Source: Mycolicibacterium litorale (GTDB taxonomy: Bacteria; Actinomycetota; Actinomycetes; Mycobacteriales; Mycobacteriaceae). Taken from it: a stretch of DNA of 64,000 bases. The stretch covers positions 1,612,001 through 1,676,000 of the forward strand of contig NZ_AP023287.1 in NCBI RefSeq assembly GCF_014218295.1, read 5' to 3'. The position numbers were made by a program, and so were the translations under genes. This document shows positions 38,568 through 50,942 of this stretch, one piece after another. The notes under the pieces were generated by a model. That model was not told the DNA's origin and did not search any database. It saw nothing but the letters and a program-made list of their open reading frames with translations. Position 1 is the first letter of the stretch; every line of letters starts with the position of its first letter.

Positions 38568-40126
38568 GGTGCTGCTCCCTCGCCGTCGGCCAGTGTCGGC
38601 GCCGGATCGCGCTGGTCGATGGTGGTCAGCGTGTGCCCGACCGCGGGATCGATGACGTCGAGCGCCGGTTTCGGATAGACGCCCAGGACGAGCAGCAGCA
38701 CGATCAGGGGTACCACGACGGCCAGTTCCCGGGGCACCAGATCGCGCAGCCGTTCGTTGCCGTCGGTCACCGGCCCGGTCATCATCCGCTGGTACATCCA
38801 CAGTACGTAGATCGCCGAGAGGACCAGTGCGGTGGCCGCGAGCACGGCCAGAACCGGATAACGCGTGAATGTGCCGATCAGCACCAGGAATTCGCTGATG
38901 AACGGCGCCAGCCCCGGCAGCGACAGCGTGGCCAGGCCCGCCACGAGGAACGTGCCCGCCAGCACGGGCGCCACCTTCTGCACCCCGCCGTAGGAGGCGA
39001 TGAGCCGCGAACCGCGGCGCGACACGAGGAATCCGGCGATCAGGAACAGCGCCGCGGTGGAGATGCCGTGGTTGACCATGTACAGCGCCGACCCGGACTG
39101 GCCCTGGCTGGTCATCACGAAGATACCGAGGATGATGAACCCGAAGTGGGAGATCGACGTGTAGGCGATCAGCCGCATCACGTCGGTCTGGCCGATCGCG
39201 ACGACCGCACCGTAGACGATGCCGACCACCGCGAGCGTGATGATCAGCGGCCGGAACAGCGTTGCGGCGTCGGGGAACAGCTGCAGGCAGTAGCGCAGCA
39301 TGCCGAACGTGCCGACCTTGTCCATCACCGCCATCATCAGCACAGCGCTGGCGGGGGTGGCCTCGACGGCGGCGTCGGGCAGCCAGCGGTGCAGCGGCCA
39401 CAACGGTGCCTTCACCGCGAACGCGAACATGAACCCCGCGAACATCAGGTTGAGCACCGCGGGATTCACGACGAAATCCCCGGCGGAGACGGCGGCCACG
39501 ATCGCGCGGAAGTCGAAGGTGCCGCCGGCGAACGCGTCGCTGCCGGCGGTCGTGACGTACAGCCCGATCACCGCCGCGAGCATGATGAGCCCGCCGAACA
39601 GGTTGTACAGCAGGAACTTCACGGCGGCCTTCGACGACGCCGCGCGGTCGCCGCCGAACCCGCCGATCAGGAAGTACATCGGGATCAGCATCGCTTCGAA
39701 GAACACGTAGAACAGCAGCACGTCGAGCGCCACCAGCGACATGAACACCATGCCCTCGACGACCAGCGTCAGCGCGAGGTAGGTGTGCACCGAGCGGCGC
39801 TGCGGTGCGCCGTCGGCGTCGTTCCATCCGGCGACGATCAGGATCGGCACGAGCACCGCGGTCAGCGCGATCAGTGCCAGCGCGATACCGTCGACGCCCA
39901 GGATGTAGCCGGTGCCGAACGACGGTATCCAGCGCCGGGATTCGACGAACTGGAACTGCTCACCGGTGGGATCGAACCCGACGGCGACGACCCCGGTGAC
40001 CGTGAGGGCCAGCACCGACACGACGAGCGCCACCCACTTCGCCAGGACGCGTGAGGGCGCCAGCATCACCACGCCGGCACCGACGATCGGCAGGGCCCAC
40101 AACACGCTCAGCCACGGGATCACCAC
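38564..40126 (-). CDS. nuoM: NADH-quinone oxidoreductase subunit M
   Basis: A 520-residue antiporter-like proton-pumping subunit. The essential glutamate is at position 144 ([16 protein letters not shown]), as in E. coli NuoM, and [23 protein letters not shown] sequence ([14 protein letters not shown]) carries the channel lysine region. The start is GTG 40126, or GTG 40123 overlapping the nuoL stop. Confidence 0.93.
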
Positions 40127-41994
40127 AGGTTCACCGCCAGGATCGCTGCGACGACGAGTGCCGCGCCGCCGAACATGCCCAGCGCGTAGGACCGGGCGAA
40201 ACCGGTTTGCAGTCGGCGCATTCCGTTCGACGCCCGGGACACCAGCGCGGCGAGTCCGGTCGCGGCGCCGTCGACGGCTGTGTCGTCGACGCGCACCACC
40301 GCTGCGGTGAGCGCCTGACCGGGCCGCATGAACACCTTCTCGTTGACCGCGTCGCCGTAGAGGTCGCGTCGCGCCGCGACGGTCAGCGCAGAACCGGCGG
40401 GCACCTCGGCGGGGATCGGGCGCGTAGCGTACATGCGGTACGCGATCGCGATACCGACCGCGACGACCGACAGGATCAGCACGGTGGCAACGACCACCGG
40501 AACCGCGTGCGCCTCCTCGTGGGTGCCGACCACCGGTTCCAGCCAGTGCGACAGCGTCCCCCCGATCGCCAGCAGTCCGCCCGACGCCACCGACCCGACG
40601 GCCAGCACGACCATGGGCGCGGTCATCACGACAGGTGCCTCGTGGGGGCTCGCCCCGGCCGCCCAGCGCTTCTCGCCGAAGAACGTCATCAGCATCACGC
40701 GCGTCATGTAGAACGCCGTGATGCCGGCGCCGAGGATGGCCGCGCCGCCCAAAACCCAGCCCTTGACCCCACCGGCGCCCAACGCGGCTTCGATGATGCC
40801 GTCCTTGGAGAAGAAGCCGGCCAGCGGCGGCACCCCGATGATGGCGAGGTAGCCGAGCCCGAACGTGGCGAACGTGATCGGCAGTGCCTTGCGCAGGCCG
40901 CCGTACCGGCGCATGTTCACCTCGTCGTTCATGGCGTGCATGACGGATCCGGCGCCGAGGAACAGGCCGGCCTTGAAGAACCCGTGGGTCAGCAGGTGCA
41001 TGATCGCAAACGCGTATCCGGCCGGGCCCAGGCCGGCGGCCAGCACCATGTAACCGATCTGGCTCATGGTGGAGGCGGCGAGCGCCTTCTTGATGTCGTC
41101 CTTGGCGCAGCCGATGATCGCGCCGAACAGCAGCGTGACGGTGCCGACGATCACGACGGCCAGTTGCGCGGTCGGCGCCAGGTCGAACACGGGCCCCGAG
41201 CGCACGATCAGATACACCCCGGCGGTGACCATCGTGGCGGCGTGGATGAGCGCCGACACCGGCGTGGGCCCCTCCATCGCATCACCCAGCCAGGACTGCA
41301 ACGGCACCTGGGCGGATTTCCCGCAGGCGCCGAGGAGCAGCAGCAGACCGATCGCGGTGAGCGTTCCCTCGCCCAGTTCCGCTGCGGCGCCGAACACCCC
41401 GGCGAACGACACCGAGCCGACGGTGGCGAACATGATCATCAGCGCGATCGCCAACCCCATGTCACCGACGCGGTTGACGACGAAGGCCTTCTTGGCCGCG
41501 GTGGCGGCCGACGGCTTGTGCGACCAGAACCCGATCAGCAGATAGGACGCCAGCCCGACGCCCTCCCAGCCCAGGTAGAGGCCGAGGTAGTTGTCGGCGA
41601 GCACCAGAAGCAGCATCGCGGCCAGGAACAGGTTGAGATACGCGAAGAATCGCCGGCGTCCTGGATCGTCGGCCATGTACCCGATCGAGTAGATGTGGAT
41701 GAGTGAACCGACTCCGGTGATCAGCAGGACGAAGCACATCGAGAGTTGGTCGAGTTGCAGGCCGAAGTCGACCTGCAGCGCGCCGACCGGCACCCAGGAG
41801 AACAGGGTCTCGTGGACGGCGCGGTCTTCGGCGGGGCGGCCGAGCATGCCGGCGAACAGAGCAGCGCCCACCACGAACGACGCGACAGCGGCGGCGGTCC
41901 CCAGCAGATGTCCCCACCGGTCGGAGCGGTGCCCGGCGAGCAGCAGGACCACCGCGCCGGCCAGGGGAAGCGCGATCAGCAGCCACACCGTCAT
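40120..41994 (-). CDS. nuoL: NADH-quinone oxidoreductase subunit L
   Basis: A 624-residue distal membrane subunit, with about 16 helices including the long lateral helix. E144 lies in [20 protein letters not shown], with the channel lysine region in [17 protein letters not shown] 41994 lies 7 nt after the last micro-ORF of the nuoK-nuoL repeat array; a GAGG sequence in that gap can serve as its ribosome-binding site. Confidence 0.93.
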
Positions 41995-42001
41995 CGATGC
42001 C

Positions 42002-42034
42002 TCACTGCATTCTCTTCTTCGCGCGAGCGCTCAT
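42002..42034 (-). CDS. Micro-[13 protein letters not shown]
   Basis: The second ten-codon ORF of the array. Its first eight residues equal those of the preceding one; its stop is 7 nt before nuoL. Translation is inferred from the start/stop overlap only. Confidence 0.5.
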
Positions 42035-42066
42035 CAGTGCCTTCTCTTCTTCGCGCGAGCGCTCAT
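42034..42066 (-). CDS. Micro-[13 protein letters not shown]
   Basis: A ten-codon ORF with TGATG overlaps at both ends (nuoK stop before it, the next micro-ORF after it). Its internal AGAAGG lies 5 nt before the next ATG. A stable peptide is doubtful; a coupling role is likelier. Confidence 0.5.
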   Translation of the reverse strand: MSARAKKRRH

Positions 42067-42365
42067 CAGTGCCTCAGCAGGTTGGCGTCGTCGACCGAGG
42101 CCGACCGGCGGGTCCGGTAGATGGTCATGATGATGGCCAGCCCGATCACCACCTCGCAGGCGGCGACGACCATGGTGAAGAACGCCACCACCTGGCCGTC
42201 GAGCTGGCCGTGCATGCGGGAGAACGCCACGAACGCGAGGTTGCCCGCGTTGAGCATCAGCTCCACGCACATGAACACCACGATGACGTTGCGCCGCAGC
42301 AGGACTCCGGCCGCGCCGATGGTGAACAGCAATGCCGACAGGTACAGGTAGTTGTCGGGGTTCAC
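42066..42365 (-). CDS. nuoK: NADH-quinone oxidoreductase subunit K
   Basis: A 99-residue subunit with three transmembrane helices. Membrane glutamates E35 ([10 protein letters not shown]) and E71 (AACEVVIG) correspond to the two essential glutamates of NuoK. The start is GTG 42365, overlapping the nuoJ stop (GTGA). The stop is shared with the first repeat micro-ORF (TGATG). Confidence 0.94.
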
Positions 42366-43653: not shown

Positions 43654-44881
43654 CCGTGGTCTCCCTCGTGACGGACGTACGGGCGGGCATCGGAGGGACC
43701 GGGAACGAGTCCGCGGCGGGTGTGTCGGGAACGGCGCGGTCCGGCCGGAACCGCATGGTGCGCCAGAGGATTGCGGCCAGCAGGAGCGTCAGCAGGGTGC
43801 CGGCGAGCAACACGCCGCTCGCCCAGCCGCCGTATCCGGTGTTGCGCAGCGTGTGGGCGGTGGCGACGACCATGATCCACGCCAGCGACACCGGTATCAG
43901 CATCTTCCAGCCGATCGCCATGAACTGGTCGTAGCGCAGGCGCGGCAGCGTGCCGCGCAACCAGATGTAGAGGAACAGAAACGCCCACACCTTCGCGGTG
44001 AACCAGAGCAGGGGCCACCACCCCGAATTGGCGCCGTCCCACATGCTGATCGGCCACGGTGCGTGCCAGCCGCCCAGGAACATCGTGGTGGCCAGAGCCG
44101 AAACGGTGGTCATGTTGACATACTCGGCGAGCATGAACATCGCGAACTTCAACGAGGAGTACTCGGTGTGGAAACCGCCGACCAACTCACCCTCGGCTTC
44201 GGGGAGATCGAAAGGCGCCCGGTTGGTCTCGCCGACCATCGACATCACGTACACCAGGAACGACGGCAGCAGCAGGAAGACGTACCAGGTCCTGTCCTGT
44301 GCCGCGACGATCCCGGACGTGGACATCGTGCCGGCGTAGAGGAACACCGTGGCGAACGACAGGGCCATCGCGATCTCGTAGGACACCACCTGCGCACTCG
44401 ACCGCAGCCCGCCCAGCAGCGGATACGTCGACCCGGACGCCCAGCCGGCGAGCACGATGCCGTATACGCCGACCGAGGTCACCGCGAGGATGTAGAGGAC
44501 CGCGACGGCGAGGTCGGTCAGTTGCAGCGCGGTGCGGTGTCCGAACACCGACACCGCACCGCCCATCGGGATCACCGCGAACGCCATGAACGCCGGGATG
44601 ACCGAGATGACCGGCGCCAGAAGGTAAACCGGCCGGTCCACACCCGCAGGGGTGATGCCCTCCTTCAGGGCTAGTTTGATGCCGTCGGCCAGCGACTGGA
44701 GCAGCCCCTTCGGCCCGACCCGGTTGGGCCCGAACCGCATCTGCATGCGGCCCAGCACTTTCCGCTCGATGAGGATCGCGGCCAGCACGGTGAGCACCAG
44801 GAACGCGAAGATGCCGACGGCCTTGGCGAGGATCAGCCACCAGGGGTCGTGGCCGAAGAGTGTGGGGTCGGGATGGGTCAC
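43646..44881 (-). CDS. nuoH: NADH-quinone oxidoreductase subunit H
   Basis: A 411-residue membrane subunit forming the quinone chamber with NuoB and NuoD, with about eight helices. Signatures are [20 protein letters not shown] and the acidic loop [20 protein letters not shown]. The start is GTG 44881 (GTGA with nuoG). The C-terminal tail is polar. Confidence 0.94.
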
Positions 44882-47325: not shown

Positions 47326-48638
47326 ACCGCCACCTCCTGGTCGGCCATCAATGTCGAGGCGTGCGGATCGAACGGGCAGCCGCCATCGAGATGCGCGAGG
47401 TACTCGTCGCGGAAGAACTTGATCGACGAGATGATCGGGCTCGCCGCCCCGTCGCCCAACGCGCAGAAAGACTTCCCGAGGATGGTGTCGGAGATGTCGA
47501 GCAGCTTGTCGACGTCGGCCTCGGTGGCGTCGCCGCTCTCCAAGCGCGCGTAGATCTGGGTCAGCCAGTAGGTGCCCTCCCGGCACGGCGTGCACTTGCC
47601 GCAGGACTCGTGGGCGTAGAACTGCGTCCAGCGCCGAACCGCGCGCACCACGCAGGTGGTGTCGTCGAAGATCTGCAGCGCCTTGGTGCCCAGCATGGAC
47701 CCGACCGACGCCATCCCCTCGTAGTCGAGTGGCACGTCGAGGTGTTCGCCCGTGAGCAGCGGGGTCGAGGACCCTCCCGGGGTCCAGAACTTCAACTGGT
47801 GCCCGGCCCGGACCCCTCCGGCGTAGTGGAGGAGTTCGCGCAGGGTGATGCCCAGCGGGGCTTCGTACTGGCCTGGTCGGGTGACGTGGCCGGACAGCGA
47901 ATACAGCGTGAAACCGGGCGACTTCTCCGATCCCATGGAACGGAACCAGTCGATGCCGCCCCGCAGGATCGGCGGCACACTCGCGATCGACTCCACGTTG
48001 TTGACCACCGTCGGGCAGGCGTACAGGCCGGCGACCGCGGGGAACGGCGGCCGCAGCCGGGGCTGGCCGCGGCGGCCCTCCAGCGAGTCGAGCAGCGCGG
48101 TCTCCTCACCGCAGATGTACGCGCCCGCCCCGGCGTGAACGATCAGGTCGAGGTCGAAGCCGGAGCCGGCGATGTCGGTGCCCAGGTAACCGGCCTCGTA
48201 GGCTTCGGCGACCGCGGCCTGCAGGCGGCGCAACACGGGCACCACCTCACCGCGCACGTAGATGAACGCGTGGTGGGCGCGGATCGCGTAGGCGGCGATG
48301 ATCGCCCCCTCCACCAGGAAGTGCGGAGTGGTCAGCAACAGCGGCATGTCCTTGCACGTCCCGGGTTCGGACTCGTCGGCGTTGATGACGAGGTAGTGCG
48401 GTTTGGCGCCCGGCCCGTCGTCGCCCTGCGGGATGAACGACCACTTCGTGCCGGTGGGGAAGCCGGCACCGCCCCGGCCGCGCAGTCCGGAGTCCTTCAC
48501 GGTGGCGATGACGTCGTCGGGGTTCATCTGCAGCGCCTGCTCCAGCGCGCGGTAGCCGTCGTGGCGCCGGTAGGTGTCCAGCGTCCACGGCTGCGGTTCG
48601 TCCCAGAACCGGCTCAGCACCGGGGTGAGCGCGGTCAT
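47322..48638 (-). CDS. nuoF: NADH-quinone oxidoreductase subunit F
   Basis: The 438-residue NADH- and FMN-binding subunit. [10 protein letters not shown] (54-63) binds the nucleotide, and [15 protein letters not shown] is also conserved. The N3 4Fe-4S ligands are C346, C349, C352 and C392. ATG 48638 overlaps the nuoE stop (ATGA). Confidence 0.95.
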
Positions 48639-49477
48639 CGGGGGCCGGCCCCTGATCGCGGTACGTCGGCCTCCGGTGCCGGCGCCGGTTCATCCCTTGT
48701 CGAATCGGCCGCCTCGGTGACGGCCGGATCAGGTGGTGTGGCAGCTCGTTCCGAGCCATCGGGATGCGGCGCGGACATGCCGTCGGCGCGGGCCACCCGC
48801 AGCCCGGCGAGCGTCGCATCGCCGGTGCCGCCGGTATCGGTTTCGGGGCGCGGATCGACCAGCCCGGCGAGTGTCCGCGCGGTCTGCCGGAAGGTGCACA
48901 GCGGCGCACCACGCGTGGGGGTCACCGGAACTCCGGCGCGCAGCTGGTCGACGAGATCGCGTGCGGACGAGGGCGTCTGGTTGTCGAAGAACTCCCAGTT
49001 GACCATGACGACCGGCGCGTAGTCGCACGCCGCGTTGCATTCGATGTGCTCGAGCGTGACCCGGCGGTCCGCGGTGGTCTCCCCGGCACGGACACCCAGA
49101 TGGTCCTGCAGTGCCTCGAGGATCTCGTCGCCGCCCATGATCGCGCACAAGGTGTTCGTGCAGACGCCGACGAGGTAGTCGCCCGTCGGCGTGCGCCGGT
49201 ACATGGAGTAGAACGTCGCGACGGCCGTCACCTCGGCATCGGTCAGTCCGAGTCGGGCCGCGCAGAACGCGATCCCGGCCGGGGTGAGACACCCGTCCTC
49301 CGACTGCACGAGATGCAGCAGCGGCAGCAGCGCCGACCGGGCCTGCGGATAGCGTCCGATGATGCGGGCGGCGTCCTCGGCCAGGCGCGCCTCGACGGCA
49401 GGCGGATAGACCGCGGGCCCGCTGATCGGGGGTCCGGGTTCCTCCGGACGCTGCCCCAGGTTCAGGAACACCGTCAT
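48635..49477 (-). CDS. nuoE: NADH-quinone oxidoreductase subunit E
   Basis: A 280-residue thioredoxin-like 2Fe-2S subunit (cluster N1a) with ligands C106, C111, C147 and C151. A C-terminal extension of about 70 residues, rich in Pro, Ala, Asp and Glu, follows the conserved domain; long tails are known in actinobacterial NuoE. ATG 49477 overlaps the stop of the last micro-ORF of the repeat array (ATGA), so translation is probably coupled to it. Confidence 0.93.
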   Translation of the reverse strand: MTVFLNLGQRPEEPGPPISGPAVYPPAVEARLAEDAARIIGRYPQARSALLPLLHLVQSEDGCLTPAGIAFCAARLGLTDAEVTAVATFYSMYRRTPTGDYLVGVCTNTLCAIMGGDEILEALQDHLGVRAGETTADRRVTLEHIECNAACDYAPVVMVNWEFFDNQTPSSARDLVDQLRAGVPVTPTRGAPLCTFRQTARTLAGLVDPRPETDTGGTGDATLAGLRVARADGMSAPHPDGSERAATPPDPAVTEAADSTRDEPAPAPEADVPRSGAGPR

Positions 49478-49506
49478 TGTCCGACCTTCTTCGCGCAGGC
49501 GCTCAT
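49474..49506 (-). CDS. Micro-[13 protein letters not shown] (unit 4)
   Basis: The last unit. Its TGA overlaps the nuoE ATG as ATGA, and its AAGAAGG would act as the nuoE ribosome-binding site. Confidence 0.5.
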   Translation of the reverse strand: MSACAKKVGQ

Positions 49507-49538
49507 CAGCGGTTGACCTTCTTCGCGCAGGCGCTCAT
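49506..49538 (-). CDS. Micro-[13 protein letters not shown] (unit 3)
   Basis: Differs from units 1 and 2 in the last two codons, ending in CGC TGA as the nuoD gene itself does. Confidence 0.5.
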   Translation of the reverse strand: MSACAKKVNR

Positions 49539-49570
49539 CATTGGTCGACCTTCTTCGCGCAGGCGCTCAT
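49538..49570 (-). CDS. Micro-[13 protein letters not shown] (unit 2)
   Basis: Identical in sequence to unit 1 and joined to it by TGATG. The identity suggests recent slippage or recombination. Confidence 0.5.
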   Translation of the reverse strand: MSACAKKVDQ

Positions 49571-49602
49571 CATTGGTCGACCTTCTTCGCGCAGGCGCTC
49601 AT
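49570..49602 (-). CDS. Micro-[13 protein letters not shown] (unit 1)
   Basis: The start shares the A of the nuoD TGA. Ten codons. Product stability is unknown; the likely role is translational relay. Confidence 0.5.
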   Translation of the reverse strand: MSACAKKVDQ

Positions 49603-50942
49603 CAGCGGTCCACCCCGCCCATGACCGGATCGATCGACGCCACCGCCGAGATCGCATCGGCCACCATCCCGCCCTCGCACATCGCCGCCACCGCTTGCAG
49701 ATTCGTGAACGACGGATCGCGATAGTGCACCCGGTAGGGGCGCGTACCGCCATCGGAGACCATGTGCACGCCGAGTTCACCGCGGGGTGATTCGACGGCC
49801 GTGTACACCTGCCCGGCCGGCACCCGGATGCCCTCGGTGACCAGTTTGAAGTGATGGATCAGCCCCTCCATCGAGTGACCCATGATGCGCGCGATGTGCT
49901 CGGGGGAGTTGCCGAGGCCATCGGGTCCGAGGGCGAGATCGGCCGGCCAGGCCAGTTTCTTGTCCTCGATCATGACCGGCCCCGGCCGGAGCCGGTCGAG
50001 GCACTGCTCGACGATCTTGAGCGACTCGTGCATCTCCTTGACCCGGATGAGATAGCGCCCGTAGGCGTCACAGCCGTCGTCGGTGATCACGTCGAATTCG
50101 TAGTTCTCGTACCCGCAGTAGGGTTGGGCCCGACGAAGATCGTGCGGCAGCCCGGTCGAACGCAGCACCGGCCCGGTGATGCCGAGTGCCATGCAGCCCG
50201 CCAGGTCGAGGTAGCCGATGCCCTGGGTGCGGGCCTTCCAGATGTAGTTCTCGTTGAGCAGGTTCTCCAGGTCGCGCAGCCGTCCCGGCAGCAGCGCCAG
50301 CAGATCGCGGATGCGGGGGACGGCACCGTCGGGTAGGTCGGCGGCGAGCCCGCCGGGCCGGATGTAGGCGTGGTTCATCCGCAGTCCGGTGATCATCTCG
50401 AACACCGACAGGATCTCTTCGCGTTCGCGGAAGCCGTAGAACATCGCGCTCATCGCCCCGAGTTCCATGCCGCCGGTCGCCAGTGCGACCAGATGCGAGG
50501 AGATGCGGTTGAGCTCCATCAACATCACGCGGATCACGTTGGTGCGCTCGGGGATCGCGTCGGTGATGCCGAGCAACTTCTCCACGCCGAGGCAGTACGC
50601 GGTCTCGTTGAAGAACGGAGACAGGTAGTCCATCCGGGTGACGAAGGTGACCCCTTGCGTCCAGTTCCGGTACTCCAGGTTCTTCTCGATGCCGGTGTGC
50701 AGATAGCCGATGCCGCAACGTGCTTCGGTGATGGTCTCGCCCTCGATCTCGAGGATCAACCGCAGCACGCCGTGGGTGGAGGGATGCTGCGGCCCCATGT
50801 TGACGACGATGCGTTCGCCGGCCTGCGCCTGTTCGGCGGCGGCCACCACCTGTTCCCAGTCTTCGCCGCCGACGACGACGACCGTGTCGGTACCGGTGCG
50901 CGCATCACCGCCCCCGGCGGGCGGGTGGTGGGGAGTCGTCAT
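49602..50942 (-). CDS. nuoD: NADH-quinone oxidoreductase subunit D
   Basis: The 446-residue 49-kDa-type subunit lining the quinone site. [15 protein letters not shown] carries the conserved histidine loop, followed by [10 protein letters not shown] and the C-terminal [15 protein letters not shown]. The start at ATG 50942 overlaps the nuoC stop by one base. An extra N-terminal stretch of about 45 residues, rich in Gly, Pro and Val, precedes the core. The stop is shared with the repeat array. Confidence 0.95.

Follow-up and report, generated by a model that had tools for sequence, protein, structure and literature searches.

A very short MIRU-like repeat at overlapping gene junctions of Mycolicibacterium litorale and related actinobacteria

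Micro-ORF arrays between nuo genes

The window analysed here, a stretch of 64,000 nucleotides from the genome of Mycolicibacterium litorale, carries nuoD and nuoE next to each other on its minus strand. The gene nuoD was recognized at 49602..50942 (NCBIfam TIGR01962, E 1.3e-176; position 50942 is the end of the tested stretch and not a settled start codon) and nuoE at 48635..49477 (NCBIfam NF005721, E 4.4e-127), and the two are linked at 49474-49602 by four tandem 32-nt micro-ORFs of the same strand that are joined by stop/start overlaps. Each unit is a complete ORF of 10 codons: unit 1 (49570..49602) starts on the nuoD stop at 49602 in the arrangement TGATG and is followed by unit 2 (49538..49570), unit 3 (49506..49538) and unit 4 (49474..49506), whose stop overlaps the nuoE start at 49477 as ATGA. 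A first-pass annotation of this DNA had described such a relay of four full micro-ORFs, each stop lying on the next start and the last on the start of nuoE, and both the coordinates with their spacing and the overlaps were borne out in the window sequence. It had also placed AAGAAGG 7 nt before every following ATG, which holds for units 1, 2 and 4 and fails for unit 3, where the distance is 10 nt. The junctions of units 1/2 and 2/3 read CAATGATG, making both a -4 (ATGA) and a -1 (TGATG) restart available, and the junction of units 3/4 reads CGCTGATG. Taken at the level of sequence, the arrangement supports a putative relay architecture between nuoD and nuoE. RNA folding across the array was not notable (z -1.09), and the one Rfam match elsewhere in the window, a sub-threshold match to a microRNA family at 44517-44567, was taken as chance.

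Besides, a tandem-repeat scan revealed a second array of the same repeat family, absent from the first-pass annotation, on the minus strand between nuoK (42066..42365; NCBIfam NF004320, E 3e-47) and nuoL (40120..41994; NCBIfam NF005141, E 1.2e-240). It spans 42002-42066 and has two units, the first of which (42034..42066) starts on the nuoK stop (TGATG), and the second of which (42002..42034) is followed by a possible 4-codon GTG ORF overlapping the nuoL start, giving a relay path of 10, 10, 4 and 624 codons.

Dispersal in the genome and occupancy of gene junctions

Searching the window with a 21-mer pattern and up to three mismatches returned 6 matches against 0.07 expected, and the genome-wide search proposed in the first-pass annotation found the family dispersed over the 5.63 Mb of the M. 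litorale genome, with 46 matches to the 21-mer front (two free positions, up to two mismatches; at least two of the matches resemble ordinary DNA) against 1 in the reversed control, so that chance is excluded by the two counts. A shorter core with up to one mismatch gave 71 genome matches against 2 in the control, some of the one-mismatch ones resembling ordinary coding DNA, and the exact 19-mer is present in 35 copies. The genome contains 27 clusters with an ATGA- or TGAC-type start, of 1 to 5 units each; outside these, six copies of a GTGACGAG variant (with GTGACGAGCGCTCGCGCGAGGAGCAAT) lie at 33-nt spacing near genome position 1340100 (locus L033).

Thirty of the 50 listed flanking ORFs were run against Pfam and a family was found for 27 of them. 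The gene pairs recognized around units in this way include a phosphoribosyltransferase with an aspartate/ornithine carbamoyltransferase (which we infer from family and order to be pyrR-pyrB), G6PD with OpcA, an ATPase with DisA (the name RadA-like for the former being inferred), a response regulator with a histidine kinase, two Mce proteins, and a class-V aminotransferase with a tRNA_Me_trans protein; FtsZ lies downstream of one unit. The purpose specific to nuoD and nuoE that had been read into the array is not supported, the unit occurring as a dispersed repeat also between unrelated gene pairs. At the ftsZ locus (L042; genome position 3271758, minus strand), a single unit encoding MSARAKKVER and its stop overlaps the ftsZ start without a clear upstream coding frame, and judging from its sequence it is a possible upstream ORF of this cell-division gene.

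The position of the elements relative to genes was assessed with an automatic junction rule, by which an upstream frame on the same strand must stop within -5 to +1 nt of the first unit start. Such a coding stop was found for 20 of the 27 elements and, among the remaining ATGA sites of the window, for 13 of 271. The nuoK-nuoL array was wrongly failed by the rule and is a 21st coupled element; with it, the seven elements that fail automatically become six without a detectable coupled junction. The upstream frame is on the same strand and ends at the unit in 20 of 27 cases. A same-strand downstream frame follows 23 of the 27 elements, among them 18 of these 20, and among the cores found in 80 NuoE neighbourhoods (the best 80 of 584), 33 of 34 lie on the operon strand. 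From 22 of the 27 elements, chains of overlapping ORFs arrive at an ORF of 70 or more codons; since 153 of the 271 control sites also chain in this GC-rich DNA, the unrestricted chaining test is weak. When the first ORF was restricted to fewer than 40 codons, which for the elements was applied by reading the chain listing, 20 of 24 elements reached a long ORF of this size against 20 of 106 controls. Five of the 27 elements do not chain into a long ORF, and those that do not fit (e.g., at 1173836, 1844624 and 4790573) may be degenerate, inserted elsewhere, or chance matches.

The same junctions were compared among relatives by collecting NuoE loci from public genomes (the best 80 of 584, one genome per species) and scoring the core with up to two mismatches. 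Copy number had been expected to vary and does so between species: 15 of these 80 relatives have 1-3 units between nuoD and nuoE, 65 have no detected unit, and the window has four. Empty nuoD-nuoE junctions are mostly a bare ATGA or GTGA overlap, with some exceptions and other inserts, and occupied ones have whole units at that position, for example one in M. peregrinum and three in M. setense, flanked by ATGA on either side. The nuoK-nuoL junction, for which nuoK was readable in 73 of the 81 loci, is occupied in the window and in 4 of 72 relatives from the same best 80 of 584. On a quick NuoD tree of 81 rows (these 80 and the window), occupancy of nuoD-nuoE requires at least nine changes, which argues against a conserved control device of complex I and further against a purpose specific to this gene pair. 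The window and all 15 occupied relatives cluster within a single 33-row group, meaning that the pattern is partly inherited, and no occupied junction is seen among the 24 rows from Nocardia, Rhodococcus and other genera. Mycobacterium sp. GA-2829, the row closest to the window, lacks units at both nuo junctions, and PS03-16, which comes next, has a single unit at either junction, their tails resembling those of the window. Given these two neighbours, the four copies of the window look as if an older unit had been amplified in place, and a loss of units may have occurred in GA-2829.

Two further observations were made at these junctions. At nuoK-nuoL, M. hippocampi (L071) has a unit with one extra core base (GAGCCGCTTGCGCGAAGAAG), possibly a decaying copy, which was not counted as occupied. 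The nuoD-nuoE junctions of Nocardia (L119, L136 and L140) hold other, longer inserts or repeats, e.g., near GGTGGTGGCCGGGTGACGGGTG in L119 and L136, which suggests that unrelated elements use this junction as well.

The variation in unit number raises the alternative of a dedicated tuner, in which the number of units would determine the number of ribosomes that reach the next gene, and with it the output of NuoE and NuoL, and would be kept by selection. The range from zero to four copies at nuoD-nuoE among the best 80 of 584 relatives and the window is compatible with this proposal, as is the occupation of two junctions of one operon in the window; moreover, MIRUs have been proposed to control the translation of downstream genes (in the part of PMC7884335 available to us), and VNTR copy number can alter promoter activity (in the available part of PMC4128351). 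However, the 32-nt units lie between many unrelated gene pairs and went undetected at nuoD-nuoE in those 65 relatives, the nearest on the NuoD tree among them, and we consider a tuner unlikely. In particular, a unit number that sets NuoE stoichiometry, as the first-pass annotation suggested, appears from the sequence comparison to be a less likely reading than a mobile repeat.

Unit anatomy, spacing and reading frame

The unit begins with a front of 19 nt that hardly vary (ATGAGCGCTYGCGCGAAGA), and the other 13 or so nt form a variable tail closed by a fresh ATGA or TGATG. Across 44 different units from the M. litorale genome and 32 from relatives, most positions of the front reach about 2 bits, with 8-9 as exceptions, and conservation of the tail is weak, the units having been collected with up to two substitutions and with positions 8-9 free, which overstates the conservation and favours variation at those two positions. 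Changes at position 8 are silent and changes at position 9 turn the Cys of codon 4 into Arg, Gly or Ser, and this variation in the residue indicates that the encoded peptide is probably not what selection keeps. Pairing of five short tails with the anti-Shine-Dalgarno sequence of what we take to be the 16S tail was predicted, in an uncontrolled comparison, at -6.6 to -9.4 kcal/mol, and that of a classical unit at -12.1. In three typed units a hairpin search found folding no better than in shuffled sequences (z-scores 0.44 to 1.19).

Core-to-core spacing was counted over 198 genomes of the genus with exact cores and for spacings of 30-33 nt. The most frequent value was 32 nt (435 cases in 76 genomes), followed by 33 nt (200 in 59 genomes), 30 nt (84 in 31 genomes) and 31 nt (16 in 14 genomes, four of these cases being two steps in a row); the counts include several copies per array and are hence not independent, and 28 of the 200 33-nt cases come from one genome. 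If units are linked by exact overlaps, a spacing of 32 nt would let each ORF end on the next start, spacings of 33 or 30 nt would fuse the units into one ORF still able to terminate at the last start, and the chain would be broken by one 31-nt step. A dip at 31 nt between two larger values is not expected from mutation around a mode of 32, and the depletion of the frame-breaking value relative to both sides points to selection for an unbroken ribosome hand-over, a process that we deduce from the spacing pattern. A stricter form of the rule, suggested by the M. litorale genome and the nuo loci, in which the 31-nt spacing is wholly absent, was rejected by the 16 cases in 198 genomes.

These features bear on two further alternatives. 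A regulatory leader-peptide ORF, with ribosomes that stall on a conserved peptide in response to a signal, could account for the recurrence of similar peptides (MSACAKK/MSARAKK), but the residue at codon 4 varies among Cys, Arg, Gly and Ser, the C-terminal half is weakly conserved, and the 30- and 33-nt spacings fuse units into longer ORFs, making this explanation highly improbable. A regulatory site acting at the DNA or RNA level (a protein-binding motif, a processing site or an mRNA stabilizer), for which the junction position would be secondary, is somewhat less remote and still very unlikely. It would fit a front that is near-invariant as DNA, with the variable pair central in GCGC-NN-GCGC (a picture favoured by the pattern, which left this pair free), and the available part of PMC4128351 states that classical MIRUs in 5' UTRs may affect transcription; against it, frame-dependent spacing and exact stop/start overlaps are unexpected of a binding site, the units lack a stable hairpin, and Rfam gave no match at the nuoD-nuoE array up to E 0.1.

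Relation to MIRUs, mobility and distribution

The exact 19-mer occurs in 135 of the 198 genomes of the genus, with no match in the control. An assembly artefact or a chance repeat is hardly credible given this number and the presence of the core at nuoD-nuoE in the relatives named above.

Mycobacterial interspersed repetitive units (MIRUs), reportedly described by Supply et al. in 1997, are repeats of about 46-101 bp with the same orientation as the flanking genes. The resemblance to MIRUs with a shorter unit that was seen in the first pass is upheld in so far as the layout is shared and 32 nt lies below this range; like MIRUs, the 32-nt repeat is dispersed over mycobacterial genomes, locally tandem and mobile-looking. 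For the search we used GATGCAGAGCGNNGCGATGAGGAGG, which we take to be the classical MIRU core. It was found in 85 of the 198 genomes, with listed units of about 50-54 nt, and gave no match with two mismatches in the M. litorale genome. Twelve classical-core loci were read, of which two are tandem arrays with units of 50 and 53 nt and several (e.g., L150) run from ATGA to ATGA with a run of purines ahead of the new start, as in the short repeat; this layout does not apply to at least one of the loci (L143). Homology of the two repeats was rejected as an explanation, the similarity of GCGAAGAGGAG to GCGATGAGGAG being no better than that of shuffled sequence (p 0.24-0.32). Both cores are present in 31 of the 198 genomes, only the short one in 104, only the classical one in 54 and neither in nine, and no genome has ten or more of both; this avoidance (Fisher p 2.6e-17, rank correlation -0.69), which is uncorrected for kinship, may simply reflect two clades.

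According to the available part of PMC12548453, MIRUs appear mobile, insert at start codons and carry an internal ORF coupled with -4 spacing, and the available part of PMC4128351 places them in 5' UTRs and gives 77 nt for class I, which together with the 50 and 53 nt of the classical arrays contrasts with 32 nt here. Both papers cite the 1997 work of Supply et al. Dispersal and orientation are thus MIRU traits that the 32-nt repeat has, and length and core sequence are traits in which it departs from them. On sequence grounds, it is a putative genus-wide short variant of the MIRU principle that would work like a MIRU and is a candidate, not a confirmed, member of the class.

Repeats of the REP/BIME type are moved by RAYT (Y1) transposases. 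The 32-nt repeat is likewise short, dispersed, non-autonomous and often tandem, but it has no hairpin, it sits in coupled gene overlaps, and its genome has no Y1 transposase match: the family PF01797 was searched for and found 0 times in M. litorale despite the 35 exact 19-mer copies, and in 36 of the 198 genus genomes. Spread by a Y1/RAYT transposase was rejected on that basis. Translational coupling via overlapping stop and start codons is reviewed in PMC12548453, and the units share its ATGA/TGATG geometry; they differ in that the repeat itself carries in the coupling ORF and that several copies can follow one another directly. Carriage by phages or plasmids was also rejected, blastn of the array at E 0.01 having given no match in either collection. 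The 17-mer was found in 68 viral stretches, none with ATGA in front and two with TGAC. One viral contig, IMGVR_UViG_3300043399_001614 (L188), has four 17-mer copies at uneven spacing and without ATGA and is probably unrelated.

A dispersed repeat with occupied and empty sites, coupling geometry and a spacing bias is what the genomes contain, and it is probably a very short, mostly 32-bp, coupling-preserving MIRU-like mobile repeat of mycobacteria and some related actinobacterial families. Such a repeat would insert where one gene stops and a co-directed neighbour starts, in an ATGA or GTGA overlap or at a TGA stop, and would then multiply in place to give tandem copies. The front of the unit would open an ORF of 10-11 codons on the upstream gene's stop codon, the purine-rich sequence where front and tail meet would serve as Shine-Dalgarno site for the next start, and the micro-ORF would end on that start, so that the translational hand-over would be kept intact after the insertion. 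We infer that the repeat is mobile and that ribosomes use the relay; the insertion would be nearly neutral for the host, and the repeat could persist as a mild selfish or neutral element.

The distribution over the order is patchy. In an order-wide sample of 298 genomes from 76 genera, 48 genomes belonging to 13 genera have the exact 19-mer. By group, it was found in 23 of 35 genomes of the same genus, 0 of 20 from the remaining genera of that family, 19 of 24 in family f2, 4 of 5 in family f12, the only genome of family f6, and one genome of family f4 with a single copy. The f6 genome is an incomplete assembly, as are many f2 genomes, and for f6 stray mycobacterial contigs are possible. Tandem spacing in the f12 and f6 loci that were read is 30-32 nt. 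Either common ancestry with losses or horizontal spread could produce this pattern. A literature search that covered few subscription papers turned up no description of the repeat, and five spellings of the core occurred in none of its texts.

A further reading, which we hold tentatively and nearly as readily as its opposite, is that the repeat is a second class of coupling-preserving mobile repeats that is not detectably related to MIRUs, patchy over several families, in need of no known transposase, frame-selected, and competing with or replacing MIRUs genome by genome. To our knowledge, 32 bp is extremely small for anything mobile. If this second class exists, stacked copies would be chains of consecutive termination-reinitiation steps inside central operons. 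One odd junction has led to a family that spans the genus in hundreds of natural copies, and its frame rule, with spacings of 32, 33 and 30 common and 31 avoided, is like a natural experiment on ribosome reinitiation. The arrays may serve as existing constructs in which to measure how many restarts in succession a ribosome gets through and supply many candidate variable-number typing loci in mycobacteria, and they offer a clean comparison with MIRUs of how such tiny elements move.

In family f2, tandem copies lie 75-121 nt apart, and the core frequently forms the end of a composite unit. In such units (L224, L225, L227-L229, L237, L241 and L242; 75-98 nt in the tandem cases), the short core is accompanied by a second motif that resembles GTGAGCATCG.AGCGAGCG...GAGGAGCGGAGCGA and has its own ATGA or GTGA start.
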